In this document: piece after piece, positions 22,785 through 63,376 of the stretch | Layout of the letters: each line of letters starts with the position of its first letter | Numbering within the stretch: position 1 is the first letter of the stretch | Assembly: GCA_026874595.1 (NCBI GenBank) | Contig: CM049317.1 | Span: 39,022,401-39,086,400, forward strand | DNA length: 64,000 nucleotides | Origin: Sipunculus nudus | Taxonomy: Eukaryota; Annelida; Sipuncula; Golfingiida; Sipunculidae | Direction: 5' to 3' | Notes under the pieces: model-generated | Database searches by the model: none | What the model saw: the letters and a program-made list of their open reading frames with translations, nothing else | Told to the model about the DNA's origin: nothing | Translations under genes and position numbers: made by a program

Positions 22785-23473
22785 AGCTCAGCTGACTGTA
22801 AGTCATCTGAGCTATAGTAATGACCCTTTGTCTGTTGTCCGTCGGGCCGTCCTGCCGTCTGTCCTTTAACAAGGCACAAATCGTAACTGCTGGACCTGGA
22901 ATCTTCTTACTTTACATCCAATGAGGTCCATGAAAATTCTCCTTGGATACCTGGAATTAGGTCTCTGTTTATTCAAGCTATGGGGCTCTGAAGTACCCCT
23001 CAGAATAATGAAAAATTTGATACAAAAGCTCAAGTATCTGAACAACTTATGCATTGATCACCATGATTCTTTGCATGGATATTGATCATCAAGTGTTTCA
23101 TCAGTTTTTGCAGACTGGTGGCGCCATCTGTATTTTTTCAATTTTTTACAATTTTTTTCTCTATTTTTGAGACCTTAAAAGATGTGGTGATCTGTTAACA
23201 CTGCACAAATCGTAACCGCTGGATGTAGAATCTTCTTTCTTGACATGCAGGGAGGCCCATGAAAAGTCTTCTTGGAAACATGGAATTAGGTCTCTGTTAC
23301 CCATATACTTCAAGCTATTGGGCTCTGAAGTATCCCCAGAATAATGAAAAATTTGATACAAAAGCTCAAGTATCTGAACAACTAATGCATTGATCACCAT
23401 GATTCTTTGCATGGATATTGATCATGGAGTGTTACATCAGTTTTTGCAGACTGGTGGCGCCACCTGTATTTTT
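22785..23473 (+). mobile_element. Helentron-like element, family 1, head plus two core repeats
   Basis: The head AGCTCAGCTGAC lies after TTT and folds with GTCATCTGAGCT (11 of 12 pairs) five bases further on. It is followed by GTCGGGCCGTCC-type leader text and two copies of the 336-338-bp core, judged from CAAGTATCTGAAC at 23031 and 23367. The core is broken at 23474, inside its T-run after GGTGGCGCCACCTGTA, by a family-2 element. Confidence 0.8.
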
Positions 23474-23553
23474 AGCGAACCGGTGAGCTTATGCGATGGT
23501 GCGGCGTTGTGCAGCGTCTGTACGTTAACCATGCTATTTCAAAAATGGCAGGG

Positions 23554-26082
23554 GCTCCCTTAGCAAAACGAAAAGTTTGCTGCTGCTTTGCTGCAACTGT
23601 GCTGAAAAACAGCAGAAACCAAAATAGGCTGCAAGAAGAGTGTGCAGGAAGGCTGCAGCTAGCTGCATGCTTCCCGCTGCCTGCCATAGGCTGCAGGAAA
23701 GTGTGCAGCAAATCTGAATTTTGTGCTGGAAGGTTGCGGGAAGGTTGCGGCTAGCCGCAGTCCCATGGAGTATCCGAATACTGTGTGCAGCAAGGCTGCG
23801 GGAGGGTTGTGGCTACTTGCAGTCCTATAAAGTTGACTAAATGCTGTGTGCAGGAAGGCTGCGGGAGGATTGCGGCTAGCCGCAGCCTTTTTTCAGTTTT
23901 ATTTGCTCTACTTTTTCTTGTCTTATTCTGCTCTCATTGGCTAAACTGATTTTGGAGGGAAAGGCAGCCATTTTTGCAAAATTGGGAAAAGACAGTGCTT
24001 TGTTAGCTCTTGTAAAAATATGAAGATCTGTGCCAAATAGCTAAAGTAAGAGTAACATTCAACAGATCCAGCATGTTCAGAGGACTCATTAGATTAATTA
24101 GAACATACAATCACTTGATGGGAGGACAAAGAGAGGGTGTTATGTTACTACCACCTGTAAGTTTGAACTGCATATTTGTACCCCAAGGGCTGCCACAGCA
24201 AGAATTAACAAGTGCTGCCAAGCACTGATAAGAGTGATTTTTCATCAGTAATTCTGTCAGTTTTCCTTTGTTATTTAGTGCTTTTACCTGTTAAGAAAAT
24301 AAGATAATGTTATTATCATGCTTTGCCTTATCATATGACATATTTATCGAAAGATACAAAAAAAAGATTAAAAAAACCACCCACCCATACTAATATCTAA
24401 AAAAAAAAGTGCAAAGAGAACCATATCTTTTTTTGGCCTTACTGGTATTTTGTGTATTTAAAATTAAAAAAGTGTATAAGTTAAATTTATTTCATGCCAA
24501 GAGGATGTTTGGACCAAGTCTACCCATCGCCCGAAGGCGTCTCGGGACAGGCAACATGGCGGACCACCCAGAACGAAAGATCAACAAGTGACACAAACAC
24601 TGAAAGAAGTTGTTACCTCTCATATATACAAAAAATTGTGTATGCATGATTCCCTTGTATGAATCTTGTAGCTTAATGTTGCCCGAATATTAATATTATT
24701 TTTGGATCATTACCAGAAACTCACAGCGCTGACTGTACAAATTGTACTGCAGTGTAGTCTACACGCAAAGTGACAGAAGGAAACTAATATTAAATTCTCA
24801 TTATAAAGTTAATTGTATGTTCACAAAGTGATCATATCCCCATGTGGACATGTTTGATGAAGTACTGATGTGCCCTTTTCTTGTTTTATGTTTAAAAATG
24901 CTGATAAATTGCAGTTAAATGTCAGAAGTGGCAGCTGCTTGGCAGAGGATAATAGAAGTTTTCAATAAAATTTATATTGTAAACATATCTCTTTTGCAAA
25001 CTTCATAAAATTTCTCTTATTTTTAATTGAAAGCAATATAACAACGTATTTCTTGCCACAACATCACTTAAATAAAAATTAAGTACATATTTAAAGAAGG
25101 CTGTGGGAAGTGTGCAAGAAGGCTGCAGCAGTGTGAGAGAAGGCTGCGGGAAGTGTGCAAGAAAGGCTGCGGGAAGTGTGTGAGAAGGCTGCGGGAAGTG
25201 TGCAGGAAGTATGCAAGAAGGCTGCAAGAAGGCTGCGGGAAGTGTGAGAGGCTGGGGGAAGTGTGCAAGAAAGGCTGCGGGAAGTGTGCGGGAAGTGTGA
25301 GAGGCTGTGGGAAGTGTGAGAGGCTGCAGGAAGTGTGCAAGAAGGCTGCAGGAAGTGTGCAAGAAGGCTGCGGGAAGTGTGCAAGAAGGCTGCAGGAAGT
25401 GTGCGAGAAGGCTGCGGGAAGTGAGCGGGAGGTATGCAAGAAGGCTGCGTAAGTGTGCGGGAAGTGTGAGAGGCTGTGGGAAGTGTGCAAGAAAGGCTGC
25501 AGGAAGTGTGGGAGAAGGCTGCGGGAAGTATGCAAGAAGGCTGCAAGAAGGCTGCGGGAAGTGTGAGAGGCTGGGGGAAGTGTGCAAGAAGGCTGCAGGA
25601 AGTGTGCAAGAAGGCTGCAGGAAGTGTGCAAGAAGGCTGCGGGAAGTGTGCAAGAAGGCTGCAGGAAGTGTGCGAGAAGGCTGCGGGAAGTGAGCGGGAG
25701 GTATGCAAGAAGGCTGTGTAAGTGTGCGGGAAGTGTGAGAGGCTGTGGGAAGTGTGCAAGAAAGGCTGCAGGAAGTGTGCGAGAAGGCTGCGGGAAGTGT
25801 GCCGAAAGGCTGGGGAAGTGTGAGAGGCTGCGGGAAGTGTGCAAGAAAGGCTGTGGGAAGTGTGCGAGAAGGCTGCAGGAAGTGTGCAGAAAGGCTGCAG
25901 GAAGGCTGCGGGAAAAGGGCTGCGGGTAAGCTGCAGGAAAAGGGCTGCGGGAACATAGGTTGCAGCAAGGTTGCCGCAAACTAATTTGCATGGCAAATTG
26001 TGACCTTGCTGCAAGGTTGCTGCAAAGCTGCAGCAAGTTTGCAGCAACAGTGTGTGGCAAGCTCTATTTTTGCTAAGGGAGC
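23554..26082. mobile_element. TIR-bounded element carrying a GC-rich satellite
   Basis: Perfect 15-bp inverted repeats GCTCCCTTAGCAAAA (23554-23568) and its complement (26068-26082) bound 2.5 kb. Similarity extends inward imperfectly through TTGCTGCAA-type blocks. Inside are a GCTGCGGGAAG-rich left part, an AT-rich middle and the 22-bp satellite at 25097-25960. The element splits a family-2 body whose flanking text is otherwise continuous. No target duplication could be settled and no transposase is visible, so the superfamily is unknown. Confidence 0.6.
25097..25960. repeat. GC-rich tandem satellite, 22-bp unit, about 38 copies
   Basis: The unit GCTGCGGGAAGTGTGCAAGA plus AG (22 bp) has GAGAGGCTG and GCAGGAAG variants. 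It lacks stops on both strands in most frames, which creates several overlapping open frames of 80-330 codons; these are artefacts. Its base composition contrasts strongly with the AT-rich surroundings. Confidence 0.9.
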
Positions 26083-26262
26083 TAGCATCACCAAATTTTT
26101 TGCAAATAATCAGTCATCTGAAAAACTCTATCAGATTTTGTTTATTTTTTTTCTAACTGCATTTTCTTAAATTTTATAGGGAAAAAGCTGAAAAAGCTTT
26201 AAAAATCTTCTTCTCCGAAACTGTCCAGCCAAATTGTCCAATATTTCACAGAAATGATCCCT

Positions 26263-26504
26263 GGAACTATATTCTCAGAGTTTGGGGGTATGTTTGAGCA
26301 CCCTAGAAATAATGCAAAATAAGCACAAATTGCAAGATTCCTCATGAAAAGCCGGTTGGTTTGTCATCAGATTTGTTGTGCTTATGGGTCTTGATGAACT
26401 TAAGCTAAAATGCATGAACAGTGATGCCACCTACATTATCTTAATTTGTTGTCTGTGCAAGGACATGTTGTCAACATGTCAGTCAGCTGAGCCATGGGTC
26501 ACTT
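26263..26504 (+). mobile_element. Family-1 tail region closing the nested stack
   Basis: This block matches 63080-63315 (TTTGGGGGTATGTTTGAGCA, TGTCTGTGCAAGGAC) and ends CAGTCAGCTGAGCCATGGGTCAC. It plausibly is the right end of the family-1 element whose head lies at 22785. Confidence 0.65.
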
Positions 26505-26519
26505 TTTAATAAATAGTTA

Positions 26520-26919
26520 AACTCTCATATCATTTGTGCTAGTGCTACTCTTGGGTATAGATAACCTGTAATTATTGAATAACAGTCAACTCTTTTGTAA
26601 AAAGCATGATAGCTTACATGACTTATAGTGGAACTTTTTCTCTAATACTTCTGCTGCAATGTAGATACATTTATTAGGCCAAGTCAAAACCTGTGTGACA
26701 ATAGCACTCCTTTTCCAAATGAAAATAATATAAATGAGATCAGCCCTCTTCCTTCTCCAAGGATTTTATCAAAATCTTTACATAACTTGGGTTAAACGCC
26801 ATCATCCTATTAAATCAGCTTATACTACCACACAAAACCAACAATTGACTACCCCTTCTTCAAAATTATATTTTATGATCATAAATAACAGCTGAGTGCC
26901 GTGACTCATGGGTCCCTTG
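26520..26919 (+). mobile_element. Second family-1 tail block
   Basis: Text at 26630-26919 matches 61450-61740 (CTTCTGCTGCAATGTAG, GGCCAAGTCAAAACC, ATCAAAATCTT). It ends CAGCTGAGTGCCGTGACTC then ATGGGTCCCTTG. It is a separate tail variant from the one at 26504, so two family-1 elements contributed to this region. Confidence 0.6.
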
Positions 26920-27036
26920 TTTTCTTCAGTATATCTGGTACAGATGGCAAAATAGAGGATGCACACATGCAAGTTTGCATATACGTTTTTGTTTGTGCAG
27001 GTTGAAATTATACCAAGTGTGCACTCTGTGCATGTA

Positions 27037-28286: not shown

Positions 28287-28517
28287 TATTGTAAACCAAT
28301 AAAAAACATGTTGGTCCAGTTTCTTATATTTTTTCTCTTCATAAACATCACAATCATAAATTTGCAGTTCTATTCTTTGAGCAACAGAAACTCAGGAACA
28401 AGCAAATTTTCGCACTAGTATTACAAGGTGCATGTTGAACCCTTTTGATGCATGTAGGTTTTGTTTCAAGGGTGCTTCTGGAGCATGTTAATTTTTTTGC
28501 CTAATTCCTACCCTGTG

Positions 28518-29552
28518 GTATTGTGTATCTTCATGATATCTGGTATTGTGTTTCTTCATGGTGTCTGGTCCTGTGTTTCTTCATGAAATCTAGTGTTTCT
28601 TCATGATATCTGGTGCTGTGTTTCTTCATGATATCTGGTATAGTGTTTTTTCATGATATCTAGTATTTTTTCATCATGATATCTGGTAGAGTGTTTCTTC
28701 ATGATGTCAGGTGCTGTATTATATGTTACATATCTAATGCTGTGTTTATTCATGATATCTAGTATTTTTTCTTCATGATATCTAGTATTTTTTCTTCATG
28801 TATTCTGGTGCTGTGTTTCTTCATGATATTTGGTGCTATGTTTCTTCATGATATCTGGTGCTTTGTTTCTTCATGATATCTGGTGCTGTTTCTTCATGAT
28901 ATCTAGTGTAGTGTTTCTTCATGATATCAAGTATTTTTTTCTTCATGATATCTGGTGCTGTGTTTCTTCATGATATTTGGTGCTGTGTTTCTTCATGATA
29001 TCTGGTGCTGTGTTTCTTCATGATCTGGTGCTGTGTTTATTCATGGTATCTGTTGCTGTGTTTATTCATGATATCTGGTGCTGTGTTTATTCGTGTTATC
29101 TCGTGCTGCGTTTCTCATGATATCTGGTGCTGTGTTTCTTCATGATATCTGGAATAGTATTTTTTTCATGATATCTGGTGCTGTTTCTTCATGATATCTA
29201 GTATAGTGTTTCTTCATGATATCTAGTATTTTTTCTTCATGATATCTGGTGCTGTGTTTCTTTATTATATCTGGTGCTGTGTTTCTTCATGATATCTGTT
29301 GCTGTGTTTCTTCATGATCTGGTGCTGTGTTTCTTCATGATATCTGGAATAGTGTTTTTTGATGATATCTGGTGCTGTGTTTCTTCATGATATCCAGTAT
29401 TTCTTCTTTGTGATATCTGATGCTGTGTTTATTCATGTTACTGGTGCTGTGAATCTTCATGATATCTGGTAAGTGTTTTTTTTCATGATGTCAGGTGCTG
29501 TAATTTTACATGATATCTGGTGCTGTGTTTCTTCATGATATCTAGTATTTTT
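28518..29552. repeat. 25-bp satellite, main block (about 40 copies)
   Basis: Unit GTGCTGTGTTTCTTCATGAT plus ATCTG, with a variant carrying TCTAGTATTTTTTCTTCATG. The same satellite reappears at 32032-32060 and 33190-33425. The gaps between are occupied by the family-2 element (29553-32031) and a 180-bp repeat block. The simplest reading is one original array split by insertions in the T-run of the TCTAGTATTTTT variant. Confidence 0.9.
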
Positions 29553-30317
29553 AGCGAACCTGTGAGCTTATGTGATGGCGTAGCGTCGTCTGTCCATCGT
29601 CAGGCGTCTGCCGTCCGCCGCCAGGGCTTGCTTTCCTCCGTCCATGGCAGTAAGTCAGAAACCGTTGAAGCTAGCAGATCCAAATTACATGTAAGAATGA
29701 ATCACATGTGAAACTTGGTGCCCTGGAGCTTATTATTGGGTATCTGCATTAATTTAGATTTTATAGAGAAAAAGCTTAAAAACATTTAAAAATCTTCTTC
29801 TCTGAAACTGTCGAGCCAAATTGTCTAATATTTCACAGAAATGATCCCTGGGACAATCTCATTCAAGTTTGTTCAAATGGTTCCAGTTCAGAGATTTTTG
29901 GCCCAGTTACAGGAGGTTGAACTTAGTCATCTGTCCAAAAAAAGCACACTAAAATTAAAATCTCAAAAACGGCTAGAGCTATAATCACCAAATTTTATAC
30001 CAATGTTTGTCACATTTGTCATATCTGATTTTGAGGTATTGGTGGCGCCACCTACATTGATGTGTTTTTTACAAGCGAAAATGTAATTTTAAACTCTTCT
30101 AGCTTATACACTGATTTATGATGAAACTTTTCAGCTGAATGGTTTAAACTTTACAAGAATTATTCTATGGTAGGGTTCTGCAAGTTTTATTAGAATATAT
30201 TGGGTAAATACAGTTTTAAAAAAACATTATGGCCAATTGAAAAAGGCAGCCAAGTCAAGAGGTCACTCTGTACAAACAGGTGGGGTCCAGACATCACCAT
30301 GGCAACTGACCTGGCTC

Positions 30318-30394
30318 GGGGGGGGGGGGGGGGGGGGGGTGTCTAAACAATGTGTCTAGACGTCTAGACACAGCATCTAGACACAATGTTTAGA
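30318..30394. other. G22 tract beside nested TCTAGAC palindromes
   Basis: Twenty-two consecutive G (30318-30339) are followed by a perfect 20-bp palindrome GTGTCTAGACGTCTAGACAC (30352-30371). This is flanked by an outer inverted pair, TCTAAACAATGTGTCTAGA (30342-30360) against 30376-30394, with one mismatch. The block lies inside the family-2 element. The G tract length may be inexact because such runs are error-prone in assembly. Confidence 0.85.
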
Positions 30395-30489
30395 TGCAGA
30401 ATTCCCAGATTATTGGAACTACATCTTTCAACCAGTACTGTTTGAAAAAACTTGGTTTGTATTTTAAGCAAATTAGGTTTATCATCAGG

Positions 30490-31765
30490 TCACATGTGAA
30501 CTGCTGCTCCCTCATTTTTGGTTGACCTCTGATCTTTCCTTGATGCCCAGCACCTTATGTGCGTTTGTTGCCACACAAACCCGCATATCTTGGGAACCAT
30601 TTGACCAGTCAAGCTAATTATTTTGCACAAATGTAGCCCTTTGATAGCTTTATAACATACACTAAAATCGTGGTGCCACTTTTTTTGCATGTGTTTAGAT
30701 CTCACATAGCTCCTAATCATAATCAAAACTGGTGGGGCCACCTGCAACCATTAATGCAAAGCACCCATCTGTTCATCTGCCTTGGGATAATATCACTCAT
30801 ATCTCAGCAATGGTTTGACTTATCCACCTGAAATTTTGCAGGTTTATACATCCTGGACAGCTTTATCAATTTTATGACAGATGGCACCAACTACATTCAC
30901 GTTTACTGTGCAGACATCCAAGCTCATTTCTCGAGAACCGTTTGACAGATTGGGCCAAAATTTTGAATGTGTATAGATCTTTCGTAGCTCTTCATCATAG
31001 GCAAAACTGGTTGCGCCACCTGCAACCACTTATGCACAGAGTTCATCTGTTAATTTGCCATGGGATAAAATCAATCATATCTCAGCAGTGGTTTGAATTA
31101 TCCACCTGAAATTTTGCAGGTTTATACATCCTTGACAGCTTTCTTGATTTATGACAGGTGGCGCCACCTACATTCATGTTTACTCTGCAGACATCCAAGC
31201 TCATATCTCGGGAACTGTTTGACTGATTGGGCCAAAATTTTGCATGTGTATAGGTCTCACATAGCTCCTGATCATAATCAAAACTGGTGGCGCCACCTGC
31301 AACTATTAATGCAAAGCACCCGTCTGTTCATCTGCCTTTGGATAAAATCACTCATATCTCAGCAATGGTTTACCTTATCCACCTGAAATTTTGCAGGTTT
31401 ATACATCCTGGACAGCTTTCACGATTTTATGACAGGTGGCATAACCTACATTCACGTTTACTCTGCAGACATCCAAGCTCATATCTCAGTAACCTTTTAA
31501 CCAAGTTGGGCCAAAATTTTGCATATGTATAGATTTCACATAGCTCTTCATCGTAAGCAAAAATGGTGGCGCCACCTGCAACCACTTATGAACACCGTCC
31601 ATCTGTTCATCTGTCTTGTGATAAAATCACTCATATCTCAGCTGTGGTTTGACTTATCCACCTGAAATTTTGCAGGCTTATACATCCTGGACAGGTTTCT
31701 CGATTTTATGACAGGTGAGGTGGCACCACCTACATTCACGTTTACGCTGTAGACATCCAGGCTCA
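30490..31765 (+). repeat. 278-bp tandem core repeat, four to five copies
   Basis: The landmark TATCCACCTGAAATTTTGCA occurs at 30821, 31099, 31376 and 31655, spacing 277-279 bp, with a diverged partial copy to the left. Each unit carries GGTGGCGCCACC-type palindromes (perfect at 31157-31168, 31286-31297 and 31566-31577; diverged in the first unit). It forms the internal tandem core of the family-2 element. Short frames inside are artefacts. Confidence 0.85.
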
Positions 31766-32057
31766 TATGCAACCCACCTCACTCTATTCCCCTTGCCACT
31801 TAATCCATGCCTCACATGCCTCTGATTTCTGCAGATACACATAGTCGCTTGTCGACTACCCATATTCAAGTTTTAAAATATCTTAGTCTGAAACTTGCAG
31901 GTCCGAAATGTCCATTTTGCCGGAATCATAATGACTTCAGGACTTAAAAGGATCAATATTAATTTTTAAAAATAATCCTTCATTCATACTCCTAAACTTT
32001 TCACAGGTTCGCATTAGGCCTGTAGGCCTTGTTTCTTCATGATGTCTAGTATTTTTT

Positions 32058-33189
32058 ATGCCCTCACCATAAAGTGGTAGTTTTACCCATGTCCGTCATA
32101 CCGTCATTCAATCCTTCTGTCATTCCAAAATCAAACAGTTGTACAGAATTTTTTTCGCAAGGCCTGCAGATATTGACCTGATTTTAGATGTGTGGTTAGA
32201 TGATGACCAGTTACAGATCGAGTTCGCGTATTGTCTCAGTTGACCTACTTTTGACTGTATTACAACTCCTGAACATAGAAAATTTCATGAAAAATAGAAA
32301 TTTTCATGACAAATGCACATGTATGGCCTTTTTTTCTCAATGCTTGCAGTTATTGGCCTTATTTTTGGTGTGTTGGTGCATAATGACCACTTACAGATTA
32401 AGGTTTGCGTTTTATCCCGGTTGACCTACTTTTGACCGTATGACGGCTCCTGAACATAGAAAATTTCATGAAAAATTGAAATTTTCATGATAAATGCACA
32501 TGTACAGACTTTTTTTCGCATACCTGCAGATATTAGCCTGATTTTTGGTGTGTGGGTGCATAATGACCAGTTACAGATCGAGTTTGTGTTTTGTAGTGGT
32601 TGACCTTCTTTTGAGCGCATGACAGCTCCTGAACATAGAAAATGATAATTGCACATGTACAGACTTTTTTTCGCATACCTGCAGATATTAGTCTGATTTT
32701 TGGTGCGTGGCATGATCATGACCAGTTACAGATTGAGTTTGCGTTTTGTTCCGTATGATGCCCAAAGAACGGAAAATTTCATGTAAATAGAAATTTTCAT
32801 GATAACTTCACATGTATGGACTTTCCGTCATTCTGATATCAAACAGTTGTGCAGATTTTTTTTTTTGCAGTGCTTGCAGATATTGAGCTGATTTATTGTA
32901 CCTTGCCAGATCATGACCAGTTTCAGATCAAGTTTGCGTTCACAGTTCACTAACTTTTGACTGTATGACAGCACCTGAACATAGAAATTTCATAAAAAAT
33001 TGAAATTTTCATGATAAATGACTTTTTTTCGCAATGCCTGCAGATTTTGGCCTGATTTTACGTGTGTGGGTCCATAATGACCACTTACAGATCAAGTTTG
33101 CATTTTGTCCTTGTTCACCTTCTCTTGACTGTATGACAGCTCCTACAAACTTTAACAAATATTTCTAATTTGCTCCAGGCGTTCCTACA
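32058..33189 (+). repeat. About 180-bp tandem repeat block, six copies, within the 25-bp satellite
   Basis: The unit contains TTTTTTTCGCAATGCCTGCA, GATATTGGCCTGATTTTTGG, GACCAGTTACAGATC and GAACATAGAAAATTTCATG. Copies start near 32140, 32328, 32507, 32662, 32846 and 33010. It follows TCTAGTATTTTTT of the satellite and begins ATGCCCTCACCATAAAGTGG. It may be a third T-run-inserted element, but no paired tail was recognised. Confidence 0.75.
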
Positions 33190-33425: not shown

Positions 33426-33452
33426 TATCATTTGACAACTCCTGCTCTACAA

Positions 33453-33474: not shown

Positions 33475-34505
33475 GGGTGCATTGACAGTTAACCATGGAT
33501 ACACAGAAGATGCAGTCGCAACTGTACCGGGTGGAAGAAATGCCGGAGCACTTCCATGAGCTGTACATAGAATCCGGGTACCGCTCCCCGTATAGCACTG
33601 CCTCACAGTGCATCAAAAGTATATTTCTGCCAACAAACGAAACGCTCAATGTTTGGACCCACCTCATGCCGGGTCTGTATTTCTGGTGGGTTCTTTACCT
33701 CCTTTCACAAGAGATCAGCTTTATAGATGATCCATACATGTGGCCAATGTTTGCTTATATGGTCTCAGTGTGCCTTTTCCCTATAGCTAGTGCATTGGCT
33801 CACATTTTTAATACCATGTCAGACACTGCGCGCCACACTTGTTTCTTTATAGACTATATGGCCTTGAGTTTATATTCGCTGGGAGCAGCTATTGCCTACA
33901 ATGCTTACATATTCCCAAAATCCCTAATGGGAACAACATTTGCTAAATGCTACCTGCCAATAGCTGTGGTGAATGCTGTGGTGTCCATGGTGATGATGTG
34001 TGAAACACGCTTCATGGAACATGGCATTAGGAAGAAAATACTACGATTGTGCTCACTTGGAATCCCATATATGTTTGACAGTCTTCCGGTCATTTACCGC
34101 ATCATTTACTGTGAGGCAGGAGACTGTGATAGCAATGCCCTGTGGCTGCACACACGCCAATTTGGACTTGCTTTTTCAGCAGCTGCACTCTATTCAAGCC
34201 ATATGCCGGAGAGGTTGAGACCAGGGGTGTTTGACATCATTGGGCACAGCCATCAGCTTTTTCATATTTGTTCTGTACTTGGATCTTACGATCAGATGCG
34301 TGGACTGCTTCTTGATGCTCAAGAACGACGGGACTACCTGATGACCCATGTACCACCCTCCACCTTCAGTGGTACTGTGGGACTACTTGCAGTGGTTGCT
34401 GTAATTGATCTCATTATTTTACTGCTGTTCACACGACGACTCTGTCTGACGTTACAGAGTGTCAACGATGCTAACTACAGCCTCACTCACCATAAGGTCC
34501 ACTGA
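33475..34505 (+). CDS. PAQR: Membrane progestin/adipoQ receptor, class II PAQR (mPR-type)
   Basis: A 336-residue seven-helix receptor of the PAQR family; the start codon is at 33495 and the stop ends at 34505. Class II members (mPRs) sit in the plasma membrane and mediate rapid, non-genomic steroid signalling. Visible hallmarks are an N-terminal FHE-YI-SGYR block (20-30), NETLNVWTH (48-56), the S-x3-H motif SALAH (99-103) in helix 2, Asp120 in helix 3 (FFIDY) and GHSHQLFH (250-257) with the H-x3-H pair. In adipoQ receptors the matching His/Asp residues bind zinc. The N-terminal block resembles PAQR5/6, but an uninterrupted coding exon is more like PAQR7/8/9, so the subtype is left open. The start is favoured by AACCATGG context and follows a polypyrimidine tract and acceptor TTGCAG ending at 33474, which implies a non-coding upstream exon outside the repeats. 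Length is normal for the family. Confidence 0.93.
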
Positions 34506-34838: not shown

Positions 34839-35367
34839 CAGGCACAGGTCTAACACTCCAGATACACTCCCATCAGACTCCTAAAGACATGAACCAGCAG
34901 GCACAGGTCTAACACTCCAGATACACTCCCATCAGACTCCTAAAGACATGAACCAGCAGGCACAGGTCTAACACTCCAGATACACTCCAATCAGACTCCT
35001 GAAGACATGAACCAGCAGGCACAGGTCTAACACTCCAGATACACTCCCATCAGACTCCTAAAGACATGAACCAGCAGGCACAGGTCTAACACTCCAGATA
35101 CACTCCCATCAGACTCCTAAAGACATGAACCAGCAGGCACAGGTCTAACACTCCAGATACACTCCCATCAGACTCCTAAAGACATGAACCAGCAGGCACA
35201 GGTCTAACACTCCAGATACACTCCCATCAGACTCCTAAAGACATGAACCAGCAGGCACAGGTCTAACACTCCAGATACACTCCCATCAGACTCCTAAAGA
35301 CATGAACCAGCAGGCACAGGTCTAACACTCCAGATACACTCCCATCAGACTCCTAAAGACAAATCAG
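34839..35367. repeat. 59-bp tandem satellite, nine near-identical copies
   Basis: The unit contains AGGCACAGGTCTAACACTCC, AGATACACTCCCATCAGACT and CCTAAAGACATGAACCAGC (59 bp). Copies differ at one or two positions only, for example CCAATCAG/CTGAAGAC in the third copy. This points to recent amplification, in contrast to the older 26-bp array that follows. Confidence 0.95.
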
Positions 35368-42291: not shown

Positions 42292-43285
42292 AGCTAAGCT
42301 GACTGAAAGTCAATTGAGGTATAGGAATTTGTGATTTGTCTGTCGTCCATTCAGCCGGCTGTTAGCAGGGCTCAAATTGTAACCAATAATAATAGAAACT
42401 TGTAACTGGATATCCAGGTGAGGTCCCTAAAACTCTCCTTTAAAACATGAAATTAGGTCACTGTGACCTGCATCCTCTGAGCTATGGGGCTGAAAGTCCC
42501 TCCCCCCCCCCCCCCAAAAAAAAAATTTCTGAAAATTTGTGGCGCCACCTGTATTTTTTCTAATTTTATTGACCATCAAATGACAGCAGTTATGTCAGTT
42601 TCTCAGCCCTGGTTTCATCCAGTGTCCTGCAACCCAATGTGTTTATTAATTATGATTGGTATCTCAAGTTTCTGAAGACTGGTGGCGTCACCTGATATTG
42701 TTCATTTTTCTATGCATTTTTTCCTTTATTTTGAGATTGACAAATTATATTGATACTATCAGATTTGGAACTGTGGTTTCATCTTTATCCTGAAACCTTG
42801 TGTTTTTTATTGGGCCTTGCTTGAATAAGTCCGTCCATCCATCTGTTCGTCTTTCTGTATGACCATCAAATTTTTTTCCTCAAGAATATTTTCAGTTTGG
42901 ATTGACAGATGGATTTCAAACTTGAGTTATATATGACCCACCAATAATGAAAGAACCCTTTTGATTTTCGGGTCATGAGGTCAAAGGTCAACCCACTTCT
43001 GTAATAAGATTGCGGATACATTTTAAGCCAAACTTTTCATCCCACACCTTCAGTCCTCCCCATGGTGCACCTGCCAATAGGGGAAGGTATGTTCCTTTTG
43101 ATTTTGGGGTCACTCGGTCAAAGTTCAAGGTCATCAGCATATCCATTCACAAATTAGTTTATGGATGATAACTCAAGTTTTAGTAGACAGGTTGGCTTCA
43201 AACTGATCACAGGACCCTTGAAATAGCTCATAAACTTATCCTTATTGACAAATTCAGCTGAGCGTTGAAACCCATTGGTCCCTAG
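42292..43285 (+). mobile_element. Helentron-like element, family 1, complete
   Basis: It starts AGCTAAGCTGACTG after a run of ten or more T. It ends TTCAGCTGAGC, then an imperfect hairpin (AACCCATTGGTC) and CCTAG. The leader contains CTGTCGTCCATTCAGCC; the body carries a C14-A10 run (42502-42525), GTGGCGCCACC at about 42540 and GGTCAAAGGTCAA phrases. It is 994 bp with no coding capacity. The 31-bp satellite starts directly at its right end. Confidence 0.75.
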
Positions 43286-44665
43286 TTAATGAACAAACTA
43301 GGCTATTCATTATTTTGTAATAAACAAACAAGGCTGATCATTTTTTTGTAATAAATAAACTAAGCTGTTCATTTTTTGTAAAGAACAAACTGGGCTGTTT
43401 ATCATTTTGTAATAAGCAGACTTGGGTGTTCATCATTTTGTAATAAACAGAATAGGCTGTTCATCATTTTGTAATTAACAGACTGGTTTGTTCATTATTT
43501 TGTAATAAACAAACTAGGCTGTTTATTATTTTGTAATTAACAAACTATGCTTATCATTATTTTGTAATAAACAAACTTGGCTGTTAATTATTTTGTAATA
43601 AACAGACTAGGCTGTTCATCATTTTGTAATTAACAAACTGCTTTGTTCATTAATTTGTAATAAACAAACTAGGCTGTTTATTATTTTGTAATTAAAAAAC
43701 TATGCTTATCATTATTTTGTAATAAACAAACTTGGCTGTTCATTATTTTGTAATAAACAGACTAGGCTGTTCATCATTTTGTAATTAACAAACTGCTTTG
43801 TTCATTAATTTGTAATAAACAACCTGGGCTGTTTATTATTTTGTAATTAACAAACTATGCTTATCATTATTTTGTAATAAACAAACTTGGCTGTTCATTA
43901 TTTTGTAATAAACAGACTGGGCTGTTCATCATTTTGTAATTAACAAACTGGTTTGTTCATTATTTTGTAATAAACAAACTAGGCTGTGTATTATTTTGTA
44001 ATTAACAAACTGGGCTGTTCTTCATTTTGTAATAAACAAACTTGGCTGTTCATTATTTTGTAATTAACATACTAGGCTGTTCATCATTTTGTAATTAACA
44101 AACTTGTTTGTTCATTATTTTGTAATAAACACACTAGGCTGTTTATTATTTTGTAATTAACAAACTATGCTTATCATTATTTTGTAATAAACAAACTTGG
44201 CTGTTAATTATTTTGTAATGAACAAACTTGGCTGTTTATTATTTTGTATTAAACCGACTAGGCTGTTCATCATTTTGTAATTAATAAACTGGTTTGTTCA
44301 TTATTTTGTTTTCAACAAACTTGGCTGTTTATAATTTTATTATTAACAAACTATGCTGATCATCCTTTTGTAATAAGCAGACTTTGGTGTTCATTATTTT
44401 GTTATAAACAGACTAGGCTGTTCATCATTTTGTAATTAACAAACTGCATTGTTCATTATTTTTGTAATAAACAAACTAGGCTGTTTAGTATTTTGTAATT
44501 AACAAACTATGCTGATCATTATTTTGTTATAAATAAACTGGACTGTTCATAACTTATAATAAACAAACTGGGCTGTTCATCATTTTGTAATAAACAAACT
44601 AAACAGGTCGTAATTTTGTAATAAACAAACTAGGCTGTTCATCACTTTGTTATAAACAAAACATA
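43286..44665. repeat. 31-bp tandem satellite with about 155-bp higher-order period
   Basis: The unit is GTAATAAACAAACTAGGCTG then TTCATTATTTT (31 bp), about 43 copies. A marker variant, AACTATGCTTATC or AACTATGCTGATC, recurs at 43556, 43701, 43856, 44166, 44352 and 44508, mostly spaced near 155 or 310 bp, i.e. five or ten units. Five units were therefore often copied together. Confidence 0.9.
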
Positions 44666-49139: not shown

Positions 49140-50910
49140 TTACAGTCCACTCTGGTTATATGTCCTTTTGTCAGTCATCACACTGGCCTGACAGTCCAGT
49201 CTGGTTAAATATCCATCTGCCCTCATCACACTGGCCTGACAGTCCACTCTGGTTATATATACATCTGCCATCATCACACTGGCCTGACAGTCCACTGGTT
49301 ATAATCCATCTGCCATCATCACACACACTGGCCTGACAGTCCACTCTGGTTATATATCCATCTGCCATCATCACACTGGCCTGACAGTCCACTCTGGTTA
49401 TATATCCATCTGCCCTCATCACACTGGCCTGACAGTCCACTGGTTATAATCCATCTGCCCTCATCACACTGGCCTGACAGTCCACTCTGGTTATATATCC
49501 ATCTGCCCTCATCACACTGGCCTGACAGTCCACTCTGGTTATATATCCATCTGCCCTCATCACACTTGCCTGACAGTCCACTCTGGTTATATATCCATCT
49601 GCCCTCATCACACTGGCCTGACAGTCCCCTCTGGTTATATATCCATCTGCCCTCATCACACTGGCCTGACAGTCCACTGGTTATAATCCATCTGCCCTCA
49701 TCACACTGGCCTGACAGTCCACTCTGGTTATATATCCATCTGCCCTCATCACACTGGCCTGACAGTCCACTGGTTATAATCCATCTGACCTCATCACACT
49801 GGCCTGACAGTCCACTCTGGTTATAATCCATCTGCCCTCATCACACTGGCCTGACAGTCCACTCTGGTTATATATACATCTGCCATCATCACACTTGCCT
49901 GACAGTCCACTCTGGTTATAATCCATCTGCCCTCATCACACTGGCCTGACAGTCCACTCTGGTTATATATCCATCTGCCCTCATCACACTGGCCTGACAG
50001 TCCACTGGTTATAATTCATCTGCCATCATCACACTGGCCTGACAGTCCACTGGTTATAATCCATCTGCCCTCATCACACTGGCCTGACAGTCCACTCTGG
50101 TTATATATCCATCTGCCCTCATCACACTGGCCTGACAGTCCACTCTGGTTATATATCCATCTGCCCTCATCACACTGGCCTGACAGTCCACTCTGGTTAT
50201 ATATCCATCTGCCCTCATCACACTGGCCTGACAATCCACTGGTTATAATCCATCTGCCATCATCACACTGGCCTGACAGTCCACTCTGGTTATATATCCA
50301 TCTGTCAGTCATCACACTGGCCTGACAGTCCACTCTGGTTATATATCCATCTGCCCTCATCACACTGGCCTGACAGTCCACTCTGGCTATATATATCCAT
50401 TTGCCATCATCACACTGGCCTGACAGTCCACTCTTGTTATATATCCATCTGCCATCATCACACTGGCCTGACAGTCCACTCTGGTTATATATCCATCTGC
50501 CATCATCACACTGGCCTGACAGTCCACTCTGGTTATATATCCATCTGCCATCATCACACACACTGGCCTGACAGTCCACTCTGGTTATATATCCATATGC
50601 CATCATCACACTGGCCTGACAGTCCACTTTGGTTATATATCCATTTGTCAGTCATCACACTGGCCTGACAGTCCACTCTGGTTATATATCCATCTGTCAG
50701 TCATCACACTGGCCTGACAGTCCACTCTTGTTATATATCCATCTGCCATCATCACACTGGCCTGACAGTCCACTCTGGTTATATATCCATCTGCCATCAT
50801 CACACTGGCCTGACAGTCCACTCTGGTTATATATACATCTTTTATCATCACACTGGCCTGACAGTCCACTCTGGTAATATATCCATCTGCCATCATCACA
50901 CTTGCCTGAA
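49140..50910. repeat. 48-bp tandem satellite, about 36 copies
   Basis: The unit is CACTCTGGTTATATATCCAT, CTGCCCTCATCACACTGGCC, TGACAGTC (48 bp). Common variants are shorter (CCACTGGTTATAATCC) or carry CCATCATC, CAGTCATC or CACACACACTGG. Because 48 is a multiple of three, the - strand reads as a 16-residue peptide repeat (VDCQASVMRADGYITR) wherever no shorter variant interrupts. Indels switch the frame at many places, so no long protein survives; it is treated as satellite. Confidence 0.95.
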
Positions 50911-52196: not shown

Positions 52197-52344
52197 ATTC
52201 GTACATTTTAAGGCGGGTTGCTCAAAAAGCCTGCTATCTAAAATTTTGATCTCGGGGAAAGTGGGTTTTGTGTATGTATAGGGGTTGTGTGTGATTCTAT
52301 TACTATTTTCTACTGGTTCTTATCCCATTTTAATAAGTTGGTTT

Positions 52345-56502: not shown

Positions 56503-57871
56503 AGCTCAGCTGACTGTAAGTCACCTGAGCTATAGCGGTCAACCTTTGTCCGTCGTTCGCCGTTCGTTAACATTCGTAACCATTAGGCCTAGAAACTTCT
56601 AACTATACATCCAGGGAAGTCCTTGGCAAATCTCCTTGGAAACCTGAAATTAAGTCATGGTGACCTATATTTTGTGACATACGAGCCGAAAACATGATTT
56701 TGAGGACACCCAGAGAGTCAGAGGGGCTCAAATTGTATACATTTAGTCTAGAAACCTCTAACATGAAATTTAGGGAGGTCTTAGGAAAATGTTTTTGGAA
56801 ACCTGAAATTAGGTTATATGACCTATATTCTGCGACCTATAGGAAAAAGATGTCATATGAGCACCCTGAATGTCAGATGGGCACAAATCGTATCTGTTTA
56901 CCCTAGAAACATTTGTACATCCAGGGAGGTCCCAGGCAAATCTCGTTTGAAACCTGAAATTAGGTCATGGTGACCTATATTTTGTGACCTACGGGCCAAA
57001 AACATGATCTTGAGCACAAAGAAAATCAGACGGGGCACAAATTGTATCTATTAGGTCTGGAATCTTCTAATGTAACATTCTGAGATGTCCTGGACATTAG
57101 GTCACGTTAGGATGTATATTTTACGACCTATAGGAAATATATGAATTAGCCCTAGAAACATCCAGGGAGCAACATCCAGGGAGCAACATCCATGGAGGTT
57201 ATAGGCAAATCTCTTTGGAAACCAGAAATTAGGTCATGGTGCACAGGCTATGTTCTATGCGCTATGAGCCAAAGAACTATGAATTTGAGCACCCAGACAG
57301 ACAAGGTACAAATTGTATAAATTTTCCTTTGAACCTTCTATTGAAAAGTCTGGGGAGGTTGTTGGCAAGTCTTCTTTGAATCCTGAAATTAAGTAACTTA
57401 ATTCTAATAATACATGTCAAATACAGTCAGATAAGGTACAAATTGTATCCCTAAACCCTAAAATCTTCCAACGCAACATCCAGGGAGATCTTGGCAAATC
57501 CCACTGGAAACCTGCAAGTGACAGGCCAAAAACATGATATTGGTAACTTAACCTCAGATTGGTACAAATTGTATGCATTAGGCCTAGGTACTGGGCAAAT
57601 TAGGTTATGGGCAAGAAACATGATTTCGCCCCCCCCCCCCCCCCCCCCGACAGACAGGGCATAAATTAAATCCATTTTCCTTGGAACCTTCTAATGTAAA
57701 ATCTAGGGGGGGGGGCCTTGGCAAGTCTCCTATGAATCCTAATTTTTTTTATTTTCCGTCCATTTTTCAACATAGTAACATTAGCCATAGGCTATTCTCA
57801 CAGACAATATATAACATTAATAAAAGAAATTAGCACCCAGTACAATTCAGCTGAGCGTCAGGGGCCACTTG
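56503..57871 (+). mobile_element. Helentron-like element, family 1, complete, about 130-155-bp core
   Basis: The head AGCTCAGCTGACTG follows a T6 run and pairs with CACCTGAGCT. The tail TTCAGCTGAGCGTC is followed by GGGGCCACTTG. The core is a degenerate tandem repeat with the phrases GCACAAATTGTAT, CCAGGGAGGTC and GGTCATGGTGACCTATATT, spaced about 130-155 bp. A C20 run lies at 57629-57648. No coding capacity. Confidence 0.8.
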
Positions 57872-58191
57872 TTTTGTTTATGGTCTGGACATTTAACCAA
57901 TCAAGGTGTTGTTCTCGAACCCCATCAAACACACACACACACACATATATATGAGTTTGTCGTGCGAGTCCATTTGGTATAAGTGTAGTATATTTGTCTT
58001 TTATATTGTGTTTTTAGCTCAGCTGACTGTAAGTCATCTGAGCTATAGCGATCACTCTTTGTCCGTCGTCCGTCCGGCCATCCGGCCGTATGTCCGTTAA
58101 CAAGGCACAAATCGTAAATCATGGAGTGTTTCATCAGTTTCTGCAGACTGGTGGCACCACCTGTATTTTTTTTTCGATTTCTTACGTTTTT

Positions 58192-61100
58192 AGCTCAGCT
58201 GACTATAAGTCATCTGAGCTATAGTCGTGGTCTTTTGTCCGTCGGCTGTCCTTCTTGCCGTCCGTCCGTCCGTCCGTCTTGCCGTCCGTTCCTTAAACTG
58301 GCACGTTTTGAAACCGTTGAACCTACGAATCTGAAATTCGGCATACCATTAGATGACCCCAAAATCTCCTACCATACCGAAAATTGGGTCACTAGGACTT
58401 CGTTCCTTCGAATTATTAAGGAAAAACCTCCGTTTTCCATTAAAAAAACCATTGTTACACTTCAAGACTGCCTTGTATCAAAACCACTGACCTGGTATTG
58501 ACCATTTTTAATATATTAATTCCTCTATATATTTCCTATGTACATACGAGAAATTAATTTGATATTTTTTTTAATTCTTGAAGTAATTGGCCCAAATATA
58601 ATGCACTTTGTAAAAATTCAGGAAATATATTTACTCCCTTAACTTGAGAATTGCTGAAGCTAGAGACAATCTTTCAGGTATATACCTATATTTAGTCAAG
58701 ATTCAATTGTATACCCAAAATTAGATCTGATTTTTTTAAGTTTTATTAGTTTTTAGCATAAATATAAAATCAGTACCTTAAATTTTGACCAAGATTTGAC
58801 CATGGCACATTTTATTCCTGTAACTGCTGTGGATTTAATTTTCACAGCATGTTACCATAAACATTTCATCTCTAAACATCTGAAATTTGAAACCAGTTGA
58901 TCAAAAACTGTTGATTTTATTCCAGTTTTCAAGCACCATGTAAAGTATTGTTTACATTAAACAAGTGTTATGCAATTCAGCTCCCTAGCTTCCCAGGCCA
59001 GCTCTCAGCTCCCAAATTTTGCATACAGTTAGATGTCCCCAAAACCCCCTACCATACCAAAGTTTGGTCACTAGAATTTCATTCCTTTGAGATGTTAAGA
59101 AAAAACTTTAATTTTCAATTAAAAACCCATTGTCATTGTTACACTTCAAGACTGCCTAATATCAAAACCACTGATCTGACTTTGATCATTTAAAATATAC
59201 ATGTTCTTAATATAAAATCAGTACCTTAAATTTTGGCCAAGATTTGACCATGGCACAATTTATTCCTGTAAATGCTGTGGATTTAATTTTCACAGGTTGT
59301 TACCATAAACATTTTATCTCTAAACATCTGAAATTTGAAACCAGTTGATCAAAAACTGTTGATTTTATTTCAGTTTTCAAGCACCATGTAAAGTATTGTT
59401 TACATTAAGCAAGTGTTATGCAATTCAGCTCCCTAGCTTCCCAGGCCAGCTCTCAGCTCCCAAATTTTGCATACAGTTAGATGTCCCCAAAACACCCTAC
59501 CATACCAAAGTTTGGTCACTAGAATTTCATTCCTTTGAGATATTAAGAAAAAACTTTAATTTTCAATTAAAAACCCATTTTCATTGTTACACTTCAAGAC
59601 TGGCTTATATCAAAACCACTGATCTGACTTTGATCATTTAAAATATACATGTTCTATTTATAGTCTATACACATGCCAGAAATGATGTGAGTATTGCGAA
59701 ATTGCTTTAAGTTATGGGCCGGAACATAATGCACTTTGTAAACAAGAAATATATTTACTCCCTTAATATGAAAATTGCTGAAGCTAGAGATTTTTTTGTC
59801 AGGGATATAATATTATATAATCAAGATTAAATTGTATACCCAAAATTAGTTCTGAACTTTTCAAAGTTTATAAGTTATTAGCATAAATATAAAATCAGTA
59901 CCTTAAATTTTGCCTAATTTTGATCATCGCATGTTTGTTTCCTGTAAGCACTGTAGATATAATTTTCATATCATGCAGAAATAAGGATTTCAGCTTGTTA
60001 GTTTTGAAAGTTGAAAGAAATTGGCCAAAAGCTGTAGCTTTTATTAAAGTTTTTATGAGACCATGTCAGACCCAGGCTCTTTCCAGCCCCTCTTCAGTCA
60101 CCTGTATGTCCTCAAGTTGACCTTTCAGGCCAATTATGCAGGCTTGACGCGGGGCATATACTTGCAGCTAGGCAGCTTATTGCTGGCCACAGCTGATCCA
60201 GGTGTCCAACCCAGCTCATCTGTTAGTTGTTTAGACCAACAGCATAACAATAAACAATGAATAAATAATTTTTTATAGGTTTATAAGAACAACTTTAAAA
60301 ATAATCAATAGAAAAGGAATTTAACAGTTGATGAGTAACACTAACAGGGAATTACCTTGCAGTTACTGATGTTTTATGGATTTTGTATGGATGGATGAAA
60401 ATGTATTCCAAGTAACACCATTGAGTCACCTATGGTATTTTTCTTTTCAATTTTAATAATGAAAAAAAAAATAATAAATTATATTGTTCTATACTATTAG
60501 GTATTAAATAAAGGAAATTAATGTTTGACAAAGATACAGTTGATAATATAAATGTAAATTCCCAGGTTTTTTCCAAGTGTTTCAGCTTGTTAATTTATAT
60601 TTATTTCAAATTTTTAAAAAAAAGTTAAAATATGTCAAAATTTTTAAACTTTACTCGGACAAGTACAGATTAAAGATGTCAATATGTCTCACTTATGACA
60701 TTTAGACACGTGGCTATAACAGCTGTCACAAGACTATTTAATTTATATTACTTAAAATTTATATTACTGGTTCCTATATTTCAGTTAATAAAATTAAACT
60801 TGCCCGTCTCTAGTTTTCTCATCGTATAATTTATAGGGTATTCTTATCCTTGGATTACTTTTTACACATATAATGGTTTCATAGCTGAGATACTTCAAAT
60901 TTTTTTCTGATACATTTTTATTTAATAAAAAAAATTGAATATGATAAAAAATCAGATCTTAGACAAATTCTCATTATGATTTCTTTAATGTTAATAATTG
61001 TCATAAGACTCTTGCTATGTCTAGTGTGTAGATTGATGTGAAGGTAGTCCAAAGTGAATATTATAGTTTTATTTTTTAATATAAATAAAATTCATAAAAC

Positions 61101-61740
61101 CAGGTACTTATGATCATTATTTAAATTTGTGATATTTGTTTATTCTGGATTCTCAAGAACTATGCTGGAACTGAATAAATACCAGACACGGTGCAGTACT
61201 TTGCAAATGTATTTGAATGCAAATATGAATATGTACTCCTTAATTTCATGTATAAGGATAGTAATACAGGTAAAAATTAAAGTGTTTGAATACAAATGCA
61301 TTCATGAATATATACTATAATATTATTTTAATAATCATTTATTTCGATTATATTATTTAAAAAATTTTGATGAAGAAAACATGGTACTGTTATTATTTTT
61401 AATTTAAATTATATTTGACATTATATTTGTTATTAATTTTTAATAGATAGTTCAACTTTTCAAATACTTCTGCTGCAATGTAGGTAAAGTTTTATGGCCA
61501 AGTCAAAACCTATGTGATAATAGCACACCATTTCCAACTGTAAATAATATTAATGACATCAATCCTTTTCCCTGTCTCCAAGGATATTATCAAAATCTTG
61601 CATAACTTGAGTTAAACACTATCAACTCATAATAGAGCTTATATTACCTCACAAAACCAGCCTTTGCCTACCTCCTCTTCCAAATCATATTTTGTGATCA
61701 TATATAAAACAGCTGAGCGCCGTGACCCATGGGTCGCTTG
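58192..61740 (+). mobile_element. Helentron-like element, family 1, inner copy
   Basis: The head AGCTCAGCTGACTATAAG directly follows the outer copy's CTTACGTTTTT. The tail CAGCTGAGCGCCGTGACCC then ATGGGTCGCTTG ends at 61740. It is 3549 bp. The body contains a 448-bp tandem duplication (58763-59660), text shared with 5330-5590, and AT-rich text shared with 22380-22760. No Rep/helicase or other coding domain was found. Confidence 0.75.
58763..59660 (+). repeat. 448-bp tandem duplication, two copies plus a partial third
   Basis: TATAAAATCAGTACCTTAAA begins at 58763 and again at 59211; the copies are nearly identical over 448 bp, including CAGCTCCCTAGCTTCCCAGG. A partial copy of the start recurs at about 59889. 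Matching 81-codon frames in both copies follow from the duplication; no protein family is recognised. Confidence 0.9.
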
Positions 61741-62960
61741 TTTTTCTCTATTTTTGAGACCTCAAAAGATGCCGTCTTCCGTTAAGAGGGCACAAATCGT
61801 AACGGCTGGACCTGGAATCTTCTCACTTTACATCCAGAGAGGTCCATGAAAAGTTTTCTTGGAAACCTGGAATAAAGTCCCTGTTACCTATACTCTTCCA
61901 GCTATGGGGCTCCGAAGTACCCCCCCGAATAATGAAAAATTTGATACAAAAGCTCAAGTATCTGAACAACTAATGCATTGATCACCATGATTCTTTGCAT
62001 GGATATTAATCATGGAGTGTTTCATCAGTTTCTGCAGACTGGTGGGGTCATCTGTATTTTTTAAATTTTTTTTAACGATTTTTTTTTCTCTATTTTGAGA
62101 CCTAAAAAGATGCCGTCATCTGTCAACAGGGCACAAATCGTAACGGCTGGACCTGGAATCTTCTCTCTTAACATCCAGAGAGGTCCATGAAAAGTCTTCT
62201 TGGAAACCTGGAATAAGGTCTCTGTTACCCATATTCTTCCAGCTATGGGCCTCCGAAGTACCCCCCAGAATAATGAAAAAATTGAAACAAAAGCTCAAGT
62301 ATCTAAACAACTAATGTATTGATCACCAAGATTCTTTGCATGGATATTGATCATGGAGTGTTTCATCAGTTTCTGCAGACTGGTGGGGCCACCTGTATTT
62401 TTTCGATTTTTTACGATTTTTTTCTCTATTTTTGAGACCTAAAAAGATGCCGTCATCTGTCAACAGGGCACAAATCGTAACGGCTGGACCTGGAATCTAC
62501 TCTCTTAACATCCAGAGAGGTCCATGAAAAGTCTTCTTGGAAACCTGGAATAAGGTCTCTGTTACCCATATTCTTCCAGCTATGGGCCTCCGAAGTACCC
62601 CCCAGAATAATGAAAAATTTGATACAAAAGCTCAAGTATCTGAACAACTAATGCATTGATCACCATGATTCTTTGCATGGATATTAATCATTGAGTGTTT
62701 CATCAGTTTCTGCAGACTGGTGGCGCTAACTGTATTTTTCGATTTGTACTATTTTTTTTCTCTATTTTGAGACCTTAAAAGATGCGGTCATCTATTAACA
62801 GGGCACAAATCGTAACAACTAGACCTAGAATCCTTTTTCTTAAAATGCTGGGAGGGCTATGAAAAATCTCCTTGGAAACCTAAATTAGATCTCTGTCACT
62901 CATATTGTCTGAGCTATGGGGCTCAGAAGTAACCCCCCCCCCCAGAATAATTGAGATTTT
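61741..62960 (+). repeat. 338-bp tandem core repeat, about 3.5 copies
   Basis: The landmark TCTCTATTTTTGAGACCT recurs at about 61745, 62086, 62420 and 62760, spacing about 337 bp. Units carry CAGACTGGTGGGGCCACCTG and GCACAAATCGTAACGGCTGG. It is the same repeat as at 22860 (+) and 19356 (-). Confidence 0.9.
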
Positions 62961-63376
62961 GATACCAAAGTAGGGCACAAATCATAACCATGGGGCCCAG
63001 AATCTTCTTACTTGATATCCTGAGAGTTCCTCAAAAGTTCTTCCCAGAACACTGAAATTGGGTCACAGTGACCTATATTCTCAGAATTTTGGGGTATGTT
63101 TGAGCACCCCAGAAATAATGCAAAATACACACAAATTGCCAGATTCATCATGAAAGGCTGGTTGGATTGTCATCAAATTTGTTGTGCTTATGGGTCTTGA
63201 TGAACTTAAGCTAATATGCATGAACATTGATGCCACCTATCTTAATAAGTTGTCTGTGCAAGGACTTATTATCAAGATGTCAGTCAGCTGAGCGTCATGA
63301 CCCATGGGTCACTTGTTATAGTATATGTGTATTTTTATATCATATGTGTATACAACTGACTGTTCACTGTATCCAG

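Follow-up and report, generated by a model that had tools for sequence, protein, structure and literature searches.

Two repeat families of Sipunculus nudus with unrelated sequences and a Helentron-like arrangement of ends

What kind of element are two repeat families whose sequences are unrelated but whose ends follow one plan? The question is raised by a stretch of 64,000 nucleotides from Sipunculus nudus (assembly GCA_026874595.1, contig CM049317.1, positions 39,022,401 to 39,086,400 of the forward strand; hereafter the window), in which two such families, F1 and F2, are interspersed and nested. We conclude that they are very probably two families of non-autonomous Helentrons, of the HINE type, mobilised in trans by Helentron proteins (Rep/Pif1/endonuclease) whose genes lie elsewhere in the genome. 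This classification is based on the end layout, insertion between two Ts without target duplication, the tandem core, a GTC-rich stretch, the copy number and the presence of Helentron proteins in the genome, and it bears out the Helentron-like assignment made in an earlier note on this DNA.

Ends, copies and insertion sites of F1 and F2

The head of F1 follows a T-tract and reads AGCTCAGCTGACT(G/A)TAAGTCATCTGAGCTATAG, with the arm forming a 5' hairpin (z scores against shuffles of -3.6 and -4.3, and only -0.7 in a diverged copy at 42291). In a 360-kb sequence pool, F1 heads gave 50 rows, 25 of them forward and 25 the same palindromic heads in the backward reading; a GTCC/GTCT-rich stretch lay downstream of 24 of the 25 forward heads, the remaining head being cut off. 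The F1 tail consists of TCAGCTGAGC, a 4-base spacer, TGACCCATGGGTC or a near variant, one base and CTTG, followed by TT; a subtype ends in CCTAG before TT, and several further subtypes differ in the spacer letters (GCCG, GTCA, ACAG, GATG and others). Tails gave 49 pool rows (45 forward and 4 reverse-strand matches), and the 3' boundary was CTTG/TT or CTAG/TT (end/flank) in 41 of the 45 forward tails, the four deviants being two in locus L027, one at window position 26474 and one on the window minus strand at 43698. One pool tail, in L020, had its stem altered on both sides (GGCCCATGGGCC), a single case to which no statistic attaches. With up to one mismatch, GCTCAGCTGA matched the window 22 times, compared with a mean of 2.38 and a maximum of 8 in shuffles. 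The F1 features of the window are as follows.

20277..20303, minus strand: F1 tail without CTTG, outside the range covered by the earlier note
21082..21108, minus strand: F1 tail with altered palindrome centre
22354..22387, plus strand: F1 tail of the CCTAG/TT subtype
22785..22817, plus strand: F1 head (5' arm GCTCAGCTGA and hairpin) of the element with the 338-bp core
26483..26503, plus strand: degenerate F1 tail, with the spacer and half of the palindrome gone
26888..26919, plus strand: F1 tail of a second subtype (ACAGCTGAG...CCCTTG)
42292..43285, plus strand: F1 element of 994 bp with a diverged head and a CCTAG/TT tail (tail at 43254)
56503..57871, plus strand: F1 element with a degenerate 3' palindrome (tail at 57847)
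58016..63315, plus strand: outer F1 element with a 337-bp core, split by an inner F1 element
58192..61740, plus strand: inner F1 element of 3,549 bp with a 448-bp core and a tail at 61709, sitting inside the T-tract of the outer core
58761..59655, plus strand: 448-bp tandem core of the inner element
61741..62938, plus strand: 337-bp tandem core of the outer element, whose intact units are uninterrupted paralogous sites
63284..63315, plus strand: F1 tail with 3' arm, spacer, GACCCATGGGTC palindrome, ACTTG and TT

The F1 heads (22785, the diverged 42292, 56503, 58016 and 58192) and seven plus-strand tails were thus confirmed. The head of F2 also follows a T-tract and reads AGCGAACCTGTGAGCTTATG; its usual tail consists of CACAGGTTYGC, ATT, AGGCCT-GT-AGGCCT and TG, followed by TT.

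23474..23512, plus strand: F2 head inserted into a T-tract within the 338-bp core of F1
29553..32031, plus strand: complete F2 element of 2,479 bp (head at 29553), lying in a 25-bp minisatellite
30683..31768, plus strand: 277-bp tandem core of the complete F2 element

For the head at 23474 no F2 tail of its own was seen, and F1-like sequence restarts at about 26262. Between these positions the F2 head inside F1 runs into the 3' part of F1, as if an F1 end had replaced a lost F2 tail. Minisatellites at 28522-29543 and 43287-44660 directly adjoin F2 and F1 elements, respectively.

Both families are abundant. Searching the assembly (1.43 Gb in 153 contigs) with each end signature, and with the same pattern reversed as a control, we found 12,623 exact F1 tails, 2,870 copies of the F1 head 32-mer, 4,021 F2 heads and 4,773 F2 tails of the CACAGGTTYGC form, with no match to any reversed control. 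F1 and F2 are therefore real elements with thousands of copies each, and the genome-wide collection of ends that the earlier note had called for yielded thousands of exact ends. The F2 tail in the exact letters given by that note appeared in only 66 rows, 16 of which were tail-to-head junctions on the other strand (14 with CTTG and 2 without), leaving 50. Because there are about 50 copies of this exact form and 4,773 CACAGGTTYGC tails, the F2 copy in the window, whose 12-bp inverted repeat is perfect, represents a minor form. The F2 head, tail and layout described earlier are upheld by these genome counts; the 12-bp arm as the typical form is not. An apparent shortage of F2 tails (66 rows compared with 4,021 heads) was dismissed, as loci L013, L018 and L019 show the usual arm that is found 4,773 times genome-wide.

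When the window was scanned for the complete set of end features (T-run, arm, inverted arm, palindrome, TTGT), F1 and F2 were recovered, both from the plus strand; the minus strand yielded nothing, and 20 Markov controls gave no hits. The same kind of scan on the 360-kb pool recovered F1 (18 heads and 31 tails); F2 (2 heads and 1 tail) was inseparable there from chance links (23 links compared with 19 in one control), and the head-tail scan of the pool gave no additional family above control. Since the pool scan did not set F2 apart from chance, this family rests on the genome counts. The F2 palindrome described earlier is by itself not rare, its one window match at up to 2 mismatches being equalled by 61 shuffles. 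On contig C1 from 0 to 15.46 Mb, 26 of 71 F2 heads had a same-strand tail 1.2-5.3 kb downstream; within 8 kb, 9 of 71 had an upstream tail (in two cases only 54 and 69 bp away) and none an opposite-strand tail. Tandem Repeats Finder detected cores of 337/339, 277 and 448 bp, in agreement with the cores of about 338, 278 and 448 bp reported previously; a further core of 130-155 bp was not listed. The layout scan and the tails also support a subterminal right inverted repeat followed by a palindrome.

Uninterrupted sites allowed the target to be read directly. For the nested F1 element at 58192-61740, two uninterrupted core sites were found at 62352-62478 (87% identity) and 62011-62141 (84%), with a joined query that still included the TTG of the element. 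For the F2 element at 29553-32031, the uninterrupted site lies at 28895-28949 (93%, ungapped, with a joined query lacking one T). For the element at 42292, there was no junction-spanning match among the matches listed. We also compared the flanks of 18 head-tail pairs, 16 of which were parsed (L010 and L018 contributing two pairs each from one head): a direct repeat of at least 3 bases was absent in 10 and consisted of T only in 6. The target is between T and T, in agreement with the uninterrupted sites, and the lack of target duplication claimed earlier is borne out, with no duplication beyond Ts.

A third family, F3, starts after a T with ATGCCCCCGCCACAAAGTGGCCGGGGCAT and has a strong 5' hairpin (z -4.0). 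One copy lies in the Helentron coding sequence of L056 (bases ~420-470, minus strand), and the related L058 is an uninterrupted site. The window holds one F3 feature.

32058..32090, plus strand: diverged F3 head (ATGCCC...), with a 180-bp tandem core after it

Helentron proteins and the nature of the elements

The genome encodes candidate proteins for mobilisation in trans. Of 195 candidates for the PF14214 profile, 150 were scored; the profile matched 143 times in this genome and never in the 14 control genomes. The open frame of L035 (2,250 aa) was scanned as three pieces, with ~0.9 kb unread: the N-terminal piece gave no domain match, the middle piece matched DUF6570, OTU, Helitron_like_N and REP_ORF2-G2P, and the C-terminal piece matched Pif1_2B and Exo_endo_phos. 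For L040 the scan covered the C-terminal piece only, which likewise matched these last two domains. Judged by these domains, the predicted products of L035 and L040 are Helentron proteins with an endonuclease. Among 30 fetched loci, the Rep motif was RGSPH in 24, RGLPH in 1 and RGWPH in 1, with none in 4; its serine is diagnostic of Helentrons (PMC4067079).

Several results weigh against the assignment of F1 and F2 to non-autonomous Helentrons. F1 and F2 ends were absent from the 30 Rep loci with 1.5-kb flanks, and also further out (for L035 and L036, 7.5-8 kb on the upstream side and 9-10 kb on the downstream side; for L040, 4.5 and 6 kb, respectively). The autonomous relative with F1 or F2 ends that the earlier note had suggested looking for was thus not found in the flanks of three Helentron genes. 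None of the 66 exact-form F2 tails, a small part of all F2 tails, lay within 20 kb of any of the 143 Rep matches, the nearest being at 27.8 kb. A search of 28 F1 loci and the window for Helentron coding remnants revealed no clear case, the one match being weak and 51 aa long (E 1.7e-5). Pairing of F1 heads with tails was weak (4 of 14 on C1 from 0 to 6.55 Mb, with 2 in the upstream control and a random mean of 0.93). The short 3' palindromes folded no better than shuffles (z 0.0, -0.6 and -1.2), so that this part of the earlier description, a 3' hairpin, is not supported by folding. A 5' hairpin is absent from F2 (z +0.8 against shuffles in both copies), and its full 12-bp repeat is confined to the roughly 50 exact-form copies, the 4,773 usual tails having a shorter or changed arm.

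One candidate partner was considered and dropped: L036 appeared to carry an F2-type 5' module, which proved to be an F2 fragment without F2 ends in the repeats beside the Helentron. This fragment of the F2 278-bp core, in L063 and L065, lies upstream of the L036 Helentron gene among other repeats.

The structure of the ends also has to be weighed against other classes of transposon. Ordinary terminal inverted repeat (TIR) transposons, or their miniature derivatives (MITEs), moved by a DDE transposase, would account for the 10-12-bp inverted repeats found at each end, and pearl elements were originally described as MITEs (PMC7492417). This reading was already disfavoured and we regard it as extremely improbable: the right arm is subterminal, with the palindrome and CTTG outside it, and there is no target duplication, the uninterrupted sites agreeing with T/T insertion. 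Nor do F1 and F2 resemble canonical Helitrons, which insert between A and T: here the ends are A-GCTC or A-GCGA and CTTG (CTAG in the subtype), with a T/T target. The canonical ends are 5'-TC and CTRR-3' (PMC3627910).

Helitron2 comes closer. These elements have asymmetric arms with hairpins at the 5' and 3' ends, and in some families insert after TTTT without duplication (PMC3627910); the F1 ends, with a terminal 5' arm, a 5' hairpin, a 3' arm set back 20-30 bp from the terminus and a palindrome, fit that description equally well. If F1 and F2 were Helitron2 rather than Helentrons, they would share the asymmetric inverted repeats and 3' hairpin but depend on a Rep/helicase without an endonuclease, as Helitron2 is described in PMC4067079. 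However, L035 and L040, the two Rep genes scanned at the C-terminus, carry an endonuclease and 24 of the 30 Rep loci the Helentron signature, although neither feature could be connected with F1 or F2 ends, and the Helitron2-type hairpin formed from the 5' arm is present in F1 and F3 but not in F2. We therefore consider Helitron2 distinctly unlikely, noting that the choice is partly one of naming because the two groups overlap in structure.

As non-autonomous Helentrons, F1 and F2 would move as follows. A Helentron protein acting in trans would nick the head at the A just past the T-tract, and a strand would be peeled off from there in rolling-circle fashion. The 3' arm and palindrome would mark the end point, as a putative terminator at which the strand stops at CTTG before TT. 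The released strand would then be joined into a T/T site without target duplication, as the observed ends, target and flanks suggest. Interiors would be free to change, so that unrelated tandem cores could be carried on the same ends. The earlier proposal that the arrangement and not the sequence is kept is correct, though it was already in the literature; the arrangement is not common in every part, since F2 lacks the 5' hairpin found in F1 and F3.

Stacking, strand and neighbouring sequence

Some F1 elements sit at the ends of other elements. Genome-wide, 123 exact F1 tail-to-head junctions were found with the next head 0 to 8 bases after CTTGTT, compared with none in the control and with a chance expectation of a few at most (a rough estimate, not computed). 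Four F1 pool tails, three of them in L016 and one in the window, have their ends precisely at the T-tract of a 338-bp core that runs in the same direction. L016 also has an F1 head immediately after an F1 end, L019 has a diverged F2 head in the corresponding position, and in L018 a degenerate tail precedes a head. Head-to-tail junctions are known from Helitrons as well (PMC5876387), which favours the Helentron assignment. Such junctions could be rolling-circle concatemers, as head-to-tail junctions and tandem arrays count as signs of rolling-circle transposition (PMC5876387), and the 123 F1-F1 junctions, together with the 16 F2-F2 junctions among 66 rows (14 with CTTG), would be accounted for. 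However, the spacers from CTTG to the next head differ among the 100 of 123 F1 junctions listed (TT, TTT, TTTT, TTTTT, TTATT, TTTATC, TTTCT and others), and a concatemer of one element would not yield the F1 end directly before an F2 head in L019. Because the spacers vary, separate insertions beside existing ends fit better, and concatemers are a possible but doubtful source of the junctions.

There are also signs that the two families share a strand regionally. F1 tails are balanced genome-wide (6,300 on one strand and 6,323 on the other). On C1, however, two blocks of ~1.1 Mb, chosen by eye, were uniform: from 0 to 1.15 Mb all 68 listed ends were on the minus strand (31 F1 tails, 5 F1 heads, 14 F2 heads and 18 F2 tails), as were all 29 from 14.07 to 15.23 Mb (7 F1 heads, 9 F2 heads and 13 F2 tails). 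We compared F1 heads with F2 heads and tails on C1 from 0 to 15.46 Mb against 1,500 random rotations, giving in brackets the number of rotations that reached the observed agreement. The same strand was shared by 29 of 30 pairs below 20 kb (7), 27 of 33 at 20-50 kb (51), 46 of 49 at 50-100 kb (1), 71 of 98 at 100-200 kb (64), 138 of 199 at 200-400 kb (82) and 173 of 332 at 400-800 kb (919). With the two blocks removed, agreement was 29 of 38 at 20-100 kb (21), 24 of 48 at 100-200 kb (756) and 64 of 97 at 200-400 kb (75). When only heads were tested, over 25.4 Mb of C1 and with 4,000 rotations, 37 of 48 pairs agreed at 20-100 kb (2), or 31 of 42 without the first 1.2 Mb (37), as did 83 of 128 at 20-200 kb (136) and only 40 of 66 at 50-150 kb (589). 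Pairs of F2 heads agreed at 0.84 (20-50 kb), 0.68 (50-100 kb) and 0.83 (100-200 kb); pairs of F1 heads showed no clear effect above 20 kb (0.42, 0.67 and 0.50 in 12, 6 and 28 pairs). These data are suggestive of strand sharing between F1 and F2 up to ~100-400 kb, an effect that is uneven and comes from one contig, with the head and tail of an element counted separately and no control transposon compared.

Below 20 kb, strand sharing may be caused by nesting and stacking. At larger distances, replication direction, gene strand, the strand of T-tracts or large duplications are possible causes. A bolder and rather unlikely reading is that the chromosome directs the strand of Helentron insertion: F1 and F2 would be co-oriented in blocks of ~100 kb to 1 Mb because the HUH enzyme inserts into the single-stranded lagging-strand template, and the orientation of fossil copies would record fork direction. 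The model for this is the bacterial IS200/IS605 family (IS608), which likewise uses an HUH enzyme and inserts a single strand without duplication, and whose orientation tracks replication direction (PMC5371812). IS200/IS605 elements differ in having no helicase (PMC5876387) and serve as a mere analogy for the strand pattern.

Other sequences in the window include many long minisatellites with units of 25-59 bp (6325-7580, 9762-11110, 15865-16656, 34839-35361, 43287-44660 and 49142-50909). An open frame at 33486-34502 with an HlyIII domain (PF03006, E 9.8e-42) is, we presume, a host gene for a PAQR-type receptor. Shortly past the outer F1 element, at 63515-63997, lies a GDSL/SGNH hydrolase open frame (PF13472, E 2.4e-8), which we take to be perhaps ORF1 (the first open reading frame) of a long interspersed nuclear element (LINE).

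Relatives and implications

The layout of F1 and F2 is known from other animals. Subterminal repeats, a 3' palindrome, a TT target and, often, tandem repeats make up the layout of Helentrons and HINEs (PMC4067079), and asymmetric arms with hairpins that of Helitron2 (PMC3627910). The HINEs of Metaseiulus and Culex and the Drosophila DINE-1 (PMC4067079) resemble F1 and F2 in their subterminal repeats, right-hand palindrome near the 3' end, TT target, boundary Ts, lack of duplication and inner tandem repeats, as well as in the presence of Helentron proteins in the genome; they differ in sequence, in the palindromic arms of the mite elements and in having partners identified by shared sequence. 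In the oyster Crassostrea gigas, eleven elements consist of a 5' arm, a complementary repeat, a microsatellite (several GTCY-like), a tandem core, a 3' arm and a palindrome, and group 3 of Cg_HINE is unrelated in all modules (PMC7492417). Cg_HINE shares these modules, a T-rich insertion site and the occurrence of unrelated families in one genome; the likeness is by layout and not base by base, and the available parts of that paper do not mention a regional strand pattern. The bivalve pearl element, reclassified there as a non-autonomous Helentron, and its relatives CvE, MgE and DTC84 share short flanks and a tandem core, as judged from published descriptions. That such an arrangement is kept across unrelated sequences was noted by Bao and Jurka 2013 (PMC3627910) and Thomas 2014 (PMC4067079), so both the end layout and its sharing by unrelated sequences are already published.

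Two abundant families, and with F3 perhaps three, are here added to this published class, in which the arms and palindrome are kept and not the letters. Two other observations may be new. One is that F1 elements sit directly after the CTTG/TT ends of other F1 elements; if true, a landing preference for CTTG/TT ends and core T-tracts would explain the build-up of composite arrays. The other is the shared strand of unrelated families over long stretches, strand-coherent Helitron insertion being undescribed in the parts of PMC5371812 and PMC5876387 available to us, within the open-access literature. If true, regional orientation would allow the direction of replication or transcription to be read from genome sequence alone and would be a eukaryotic parallel to IS608.

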